Below, in pieces: positions 19,536 to 19,776 of a stretch of DNA of 64,000 nt; position 1 is the first letter of the stretch, and every line of letters starts with the position of its first letter. Below the pieces are notes generated by a model. That model made no database searches, was not told the DNA's origin, and saw only the letters and a list, made by a program, of their open reading frames with translations. The translations under genes were made by a program, and so were the position numbers. This stretch comes from Streptomyces naganishii JCM 4654 (GTDB lineage Bacteria; Actinomycetota; Actinomycetes; Streptomycetales; Streptomycetaceae), in the NCBI RefSeq assembly GCF_014650575.1, contig NZ_BMVF01000002.1, forward strand, positions 186,001 through 250,000. The letters are read 5' to 3'.

Positions 19536-19608
19536 GAGACCTACTCCCTACGCCGGCATTACCCGGTAACAGGTTCGGCGGTCGACGCAGCGGTTCTCGT
19601 CTGTCGGT

Positions 19609-19622
19609 GTTTCATGTGAAAC
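19609..19622. other. parS-like site (one mismatch), inside TPP riboswitch
   Basis: GTTTCATGTGAAAC differs from parS at one central base. It can also fold as an RNA hairpin within the P3 arm. Confidence 0.7.
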
Positions 19623-19629
19623 GACGGAT

Positions 19630-19643
19630 GTTCCACGTGAAAC
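19630..19643. other. parS-like site (one mismatch), inside TPP riboswitch
   Basis: GTTCCACGTGAAAC differs from parS at position 4. It is 21 bp, about two helical turns, from the neighbouring copy. Confidence 0.7.
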
Positions 19644-19776
19644 ATCGCGAAGACGAAGTTCAGCGCCCTCTCAGCCCGGTGCTCCGAGCTCCCGCGTGTG
19701 CAAAGGTGCCTCCACGCTAGCGCCATGTGTGGCACGGTGAACAGTGGGCCTCCACCGTTCTTGCGATGATCGGGCG

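Follow-up and report, generated by a model that had tools for sequence, protein, structure and literature searches.

A probable parS site nested in the P3 arm of the TPP-riboswitch-like thiC leader of Streptomyces

Background

Why should the leader of a thiamine gene carry, between the two halves of its riboswitch, letters that resemble parS? The question is raised by thiC in a 64,000-nucleotide stretch of Streptomyces naganishii JCM 4654 (hereafter the window), where the initial annotation had noticed two parS-like palindromes in an expanded P3 arm and had left two readings side by side: either ParB could affect the transcription of thiC, or the hairpins alone matter and the parS likeness is inherited from an insertion. 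Our answer, to which we give a probability of about 0.8 on comparative sequence evidence, is that a real parS is nested in a tolerant P3 arm of the thiC TPP riboswitch, together with an RNA-pairing partner. The presence of the word, its conservation, the covariation of the RNA around it and a constraint on its letters beyond pairing are direct results.

Results

The thiC leader and its surroundings

Both conserved TPP halves had been recognised by the initial annotation in the minus-strand leader, and the covariance model agrees: in a local scan, positions 1-105 of RF00059 aligned full-length at 39.8 bits, with both halves flanking a 74-nt insert (Table 1). This score does not reach the gathering score of 54.3, and the leader is absent from the default Rfam scan; a genome-wide search with RF00059 gave 32.2 bits at the same place, over positions 9-90 only. 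Among eight other thiC leaders, an RF00059 search gave 38.6-43.8 bits for four and reported nothing for the other four. The sub-gathering score is probably due to the large P3 insert. Because the curated score is missed, we class the leader as TPP-riboswitch-like, with a P3 insert of unusual size; nevertheless, it has the two conserved halves, the consensus pairing and the downstream thiamine gene expected of RF00059, and is very probably a true member of that family. The arm, previously put at about 100 nt, measures 82 nt when it is delimited by its two flanking motifs.

Table 1. Coordinates of the thiC leader, its parS-like words and related features in the window
Feature	Position	Strand	Basis or remark
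TPP riboswitch (THI element), thiC leader	19528..19705	-	RF00059, 39.8 bits, E 1.2e-6
Aptamer 5' half, CTGAGA at 19669-19674	19661..19700	-	Sequence and Rfam alignment
Aptamer 3' half, 5 nt from the thiC start codon	19541..19582	-	Sequence and Rfam alignment
P3 arm, 82 nt, between CTGAGAGG and CGACCG	19585..19666	-	Same parsing rule in 228 leaders
Site 1, TGTTCCACGTGAAACA, proposed ParB nucleation site	19629..19644	+	Full match to 16-bp consensus TGTTNCACGTGAAACA
Site 2, GTTTCATGTGAAAC, one base from 14-bp parS	19609..19622	+	Putative RNA partner of site 1; possible second ParB site
thiC, phosphomethylpyrimidine synthase	17751..19535	-	NF006763 equivalog, 981.6 bits (cut-off 650)
Gap between thiC and divergent predicted ORF (19744-21228)	19536..19743, 208 bp	.	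Rough ORF calls, codon-position G+C
ParB N-terminal domain	63621..63899 (G000:C2:249621-249899)	-	PF02195, 123.3 bits
Exact 14-bp parS word	30474..30487	.	One of 12 in the window
Other 11 exact parS words (starts)	4289, 9750, 9788, 27080, 36952, 43357, 50296, 50360, 59866, 62044, 63958		

The arm holds two words, numbered here so that site 1 comes first in the RNA. The 14-bp core of site 1 (GTTCCACGTGAAAC, 19630-19643 on the plus strand) is one base from GTTTCACGTGAAAC, as is site 2, and the two 14-mers start 21 bp apart; the palindromes are therefore placed, and as close to parS, as first described. Measured against the 16-bp form TGTTTCACGTGAAACA, site 1 has one mismatch and site 2 has two, and the consensus TGTTNCACGTGAAACA, the main form of chromosomal parS according to a review (PMC7022226), is matched by site 1 and not by 19608-19623, which contains site 2. 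The 16 letters of site 1 are also those of the parS within the parB gene of B. subtilis that was used in binding work (PMC4333373).

The surroundings are those of an origin-proximal parS cluster. The window's genome has a single PF02195 (ParB_N) match and thus encodes a ParB, and its single DnaA-domain match (C2:256503-256988) lies about 51 kb from the thiC leader (C2:205.6 kb) on the same contig. Since the window contains 12 exact 14-bp parS words, 9 of them between predicted genes by a rough codon-composition call, the thiC leader sits inside the cluster. Every exact word in the genome (16) and every one-mismatch word (4) lies on C2, the contig of the window, and the thiC pair makes up two of these four. 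The exact parS at 63958-63971 closely precedes the ParB_N domain, read along the parB strand, and falls inside a predicted coding frame.

The riboswitch takes up most of the gap between thiC and the divergent ORF, and the pair of words lies inside this gap. A promoter scan gave no sigma-70-like site, a result that carries no weight either way. A site within the leader, in a gap of 208 bp between divergent ORFs, is what one would expect if ParB on the arm regulated thiC, either by acting as a roadblock to transcription of the leader or by spreading across the promoter, and such regulation would add to a nested parS instead of replacing it. The review cited above (PMC7022226) offers precedents in both directions: in P. 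aeruginosa, genes adjoining parS3 and parS4 are reportedly repressed by these sites, whereas loss of Spo0J in B. subtilis left parS-adjoining genes unaffected. By default we expect ParB to have little effect on thiC, or to repress it mildly, and regulation of this kind seems to us doubtful.

Distribution of the word

A comparison of the thiC P3 arm across Streptomyces had been proposed as a check, and it favours conservation. We sampled 392 genomes from the window's genus, taken to be Streptomyces because the named thiC loci closest to that of the window belong to it. A pattern made of the TPP motif GCTGAGAGG, 12-42 nt and a parS-like word matched in 189 of the 392, and a reversed-pattern control matched in none of them. 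The pattern lets through certain words that differ from parS at two or more bases; among the matches listed, none had more than one mismatch. With a looser start (GCTGAGA) in a class-wide sample, 14 of 22 genomes of the genus matched versus 1 of 224 other genomes. That one match outside the genus, like three extra matches in 2 of the 14, does not resemble a thiC leader, so the looser pattern gives some chance hits beside true parS, and we do not retain the presence of the nested word outside the genus.

We then have 228 leaders that could be parsed by one rule: 22 streptomycete loci (one from Kitasatospora), 45 further loci, 160 regions and the window itself, nine parsed leaders from other genera being left out. 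They were taken from the matches listed without regard to their parS content, and their proportions are not population frequencies, for which 189 of 392 is the figure to use. An exact parS is present in 22 of them, a word with one mismatch in 127, a word with two mismatches in none, and 79 are without the word, which indicates that the site is dispensable. The initial annotation would have given up its idea had related leaders shown the same arm length without parS likeness, and here the outcome depends on length. When long arms are defined by a length above 63 nt alone, 105 of 105 among the 228 leaders hold a word at most one base from parS; at 58-63 nt, 11 of the 55 arms have no such word, and the riboswitch itself can therefore do without parS.

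On the thiC tree, the presence of the word requires about 4 changes, versus a mean of 65.6 for shuffled labels. The trait is thus inherited by clades, and part of its conservation is shared descent. We also considered whether parS likeness might be a property of TPP riboswitches generally, and this can be set aside: in nine genomes, RF00059 matched at 19 places other than thiC, 10 times above gathering, and no word with at most two mismatches from parS lies within the roughly 3.1 kb around any of them. The word therefore belongs to the thiC leader, located near the origin, and not to this class of riboswitch. In S. cirratus (L012:4855-4868), the thiC arm has no parS, and an exact parS lies about 70 bp beyond the end of thiC.

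Pairing in the RNA and constancy of the word

Arms with a single site allow pairing and letters to be separated. In an alignment of 35 such arms of 61 nt (out of 44 single-site arms), 8 of 15 pairs have changed on both sides, with 32 cells of this kind, a count that none of 500 shuffles equalled; the helix is therefore real as RNA. None of the five pairs inside the parS word is among the eight: four are invariant and the fifth alternates between U-A and U-G. Parsimony on the thiC tree gives 4 changes for the 10 word-stem columns versus 26 for 8 flanking-stem columns, and 3 changes for the 4 loop columns versus 49 for 8 other unpaired columns. The corresponding binomial values, about 2e-6 for each contrast, assume that parsimony changes are independent of one another; the per-column tests are based on a single gene tree and on column sets picked after the alignments had been seen. 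The loop reads ACGT in 37 and ACAT in 7 of the 44 single-site arms; among the arms that lack parS, the 68 with a length of 37 nt or more show 54 different first loops. Among aligned relatives, word and loop are thus near-invariant while the flanks covary, and by this comparison their constancy exceeds what pairing alone would demand. In single-site leaders, a lone parS would fold on itself.

The long arms present a different structure from the one first drawn, in which each palindrome formed its own hairpin extending P3. In the 94-nt class (58 of the 105 long arms, 57 of them distinct), the helix that joins the two words has 40 cells changed on both sides, a value not attained in 500 shuffles; the number of pairs with such changes is 4, which 135 of 500 shuffles reached. 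Two separate hairpins can be rejected as the structure of the long arms, no pair in them having changed on both sides versus 40 cells for the long helix, and the window's arm folds at -31.0 kcal/mol with the words paired together versus -24.5 kcal/mol when both self-hairpins are enforced. A single helix has to be substituted for the two.

The two strands of this helix are not equivalent. Assigning words to halves by the midpoint of the arm, a word at most one base from parS is found in the 5' half only in 91 of the 105 long arms, in the 3' half only in 2, in both halves in 12, the window included, and in neither half in none. Across the 58 arms of the 94-nt class, site 1 shows 23 changes at 4 positions and site 2 shows 54 at 10; at positions 12 and 13 there are no changes in site 1 versus 16 in site 2, where the letter is A or G at position 12 in all but 2 of 58 (which have C) and A or G throughout at position 13, both A and G pairing with U. 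The parS likeness of the second word is therefore largely a consequence of its pairing with a self-complementary partner. From these alignments, one copy appears to be kept as a word, and the other to serve mainly as its pairing partner. L175 and L244 are long arms with the near-parS word in the 3' half: in L175 it looks as though the copy being kept had moved to the other strand, and L244 (70 nt, with the word near the middle) is a borderline case.

The kept word is itself peculiar. In the 94-nt arms (58 leaders, L001-L243) it is exactly one base off in 58 of 58 and never exact, and only 6 of the 105 long arms hold an exact parS, compared with 16 of the 44 single-site arms. The changes in site 1 of the 94-nt class fall at positions 8, 9 and 11 in 22 cases out of 23, that is, in one half of the word. 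A U-G wobble accounts for position 11 but not for positions 8 and 9, and changes biased to one half are not by themselves explained by a symmetric ParB site.

Could the P3 extension have been kept for its folding only, with a parS likeness that came from a single insertion and was retained with the helix? The pairing is real and covaries, the likeness runs by clades with its few changes on the thiC tree, and hairpins are formed by arms that lack parS as well (68 of 68 with a length of 37 nt or more). A helix, however, requires neither a fixed loop nor fixed letters, whereas here the flanking pairs vary on both sides and the word pairs do not, the loop columns hardly change, and positions 12 and 13 are free to vary in one strand of the 94-nt helix and fixed in the other. 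A near-invariant word and loop beside covarying stems thus speak against the second of the two readings in the initial annotation, hairpins alone with an inherited likeness, and we hold it to be rather improbable.

The word as a probable ParB site

Kept words in the arm depart from parS at positions 4, 8, 9 or 11. For comparison, 12 one-mismatch words away from thiC, from 3 of 8 genomes (those listed in full), fall into the mirror classes 4/11 (8 words), 6/9 (2), 7/8 (1) and 5/10 (1), so that 11 of the 12 belong to the arm-type classes 4/11, 6/9 and 7/8, and the window's genome adds one non-thiC word of class 6/9 and one of class 4/11. The variants seen in the arm thus mostly match those at other origin-region parS words, some of which perhaps occupy orthologous places. 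The 14-bp core GTTNCACGTGAAAC of the published form occurs in 103 of the 149 leaders that have a parS-like word, and the 16-bp consensus is complete in 53; about one third of the leader words, mainly GTTTCACATGAAAC, do not conform to this core, which tells against a ParB site. From the overall likeness to parS, we nevertheless infer that the constraint on the word is ParB binding.

Published surveys give an idea of how many such sites a streptomycete may have: 16 predicted parS sites in S. venezuelae (PMC4852455), 17 sites bound there in a later ChIP-seq study (PMC12511625), and 11-65 predicted sites in each of 20 closed genomes (PMC8743542). A word search of the main text of the S. venezuelae ParB ChIP-seq paper (PMC4852455) returned only "thick" for thiC, a negative that bears on the site only if S. 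venezuelae carries the word.

Another sequence-specific factor binding DNA or RNA, or an antisense partner, might instead recognise GTTTCAC in the leader. This would fit the fact that GTTTCAC (RNA strand) is the most invariant half of the word, the changes lying almost wholly in the other half. However, the letters are those of a ParB site, the tolerated mismatches fall in the classes that other origin-region parS words show, and TPP leaders away from thiC are without it, so we consider such a factor very unlikely. Chance resemblance can be dismissed, since none of 68,400 shuffled P3 arms and only 8 of 200,000 random 5-bp hairpins with a 4-nt loop came within one mismatch of parS, the reversed pattern found nothing in 392 genomes, and the window has 16 matches with at most three mismatches from the 14-mer versus 0.97 expected from shuffles.

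Discussion

The proposal that the variable arm of the riboswitch has taken up centromere-like DNA stands up well: the arm is indeed expanded, what it resembles is true parS, the place is within an origin-proximal cluster, and about half of the sampled genus shares the feature. Our preferred reading, the parS nested in a tolerant P3 arm, gives the same letters two roles. As DNA, site 1 (19629-19644) would be an origin-region site where ParB loads; as RNA, its self-complementary letters would form one strand of the long helix that extends P3. Most likely the aptamer tolerates such extensions and the arm is a passenger region, in which a palindromic parS would fold harmlessly as RNA while adding a ParB loading site to the origin domain. 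In most leaders with long arms, the second word would chiefly be a partner, parS-like because parS is its own reverse complement. Since both words of the window are still at most one base from parS, site 2 may bind ParB too.

A stronger version of the nested site, which we regard as unlikely, is that ParB loading and riboswitch-controlled transcription of thiC influence each other. Under thiamine shortage, ParB would be evicted or displaced by transcription of the arm, and loaded ParB clamps would in turn restrain thiC. If this were true, one shared sequence would physically couple a site of chromosome segregation to a metabolite switch, and the predominance of words with one mismatch would reflect a tuned affinity.

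Both components are of known kinds. The leader site shares with the chromosomal parS of the Streptomyces ParABS system its word, its place near oriC among many sites and its mismatch classes; it differs from that cluster as a putative ParB site located in a structured riboswitch arm and mostly one base off the 14-bp palindrome. The RF00059 riboswitch has the same two conserved halves ahead of thiC, which extend nearly as far as the start codon, whereas in this leader P3 has a long distal extension that holds the parS word, and the score stays below gathering. The closest parallel that we have is the parS inside B. subtilis parB (PMC4333373), with its identical 16 letters, likewise embedded in a sequence that has another function, although that second function is coding there and would be an RNA helix here. 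Among the titles and opening lines of abstracts listed, we found no parS described in a riboswitch or at thiC; this is a statement about the nesting, and the site itself may already figure in a supplementary parS table.

The wider suggestion is that one short sequence appears to be constrained twice, once as a protein-binding DNA site for chromosome segregation and once as a segment that pairs within a regulatory RNA, and that, where intergenic space is crowded, the variable arm of a riboswitch can accommodate palindromic DNA elements, which fold harmlessly. Natural leaders with an exact parS, with one mismatch and with no parS provide a test bed for ParB loading and for thiC expression.

Two other features of the window were noted in passing. 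On the minus strand at 36952-37004, between predicted convergent ORFs, GCTGAGA is followed by a strong G+C-rich inverted repeat and then by an exact parS; the repeat is possibly a terminator adjoining the parS. The Scr3920 small RNA of Rfam (25383-25508, minus strand, 145.8 bits) is the sole match above gathering in the window by the default scan.
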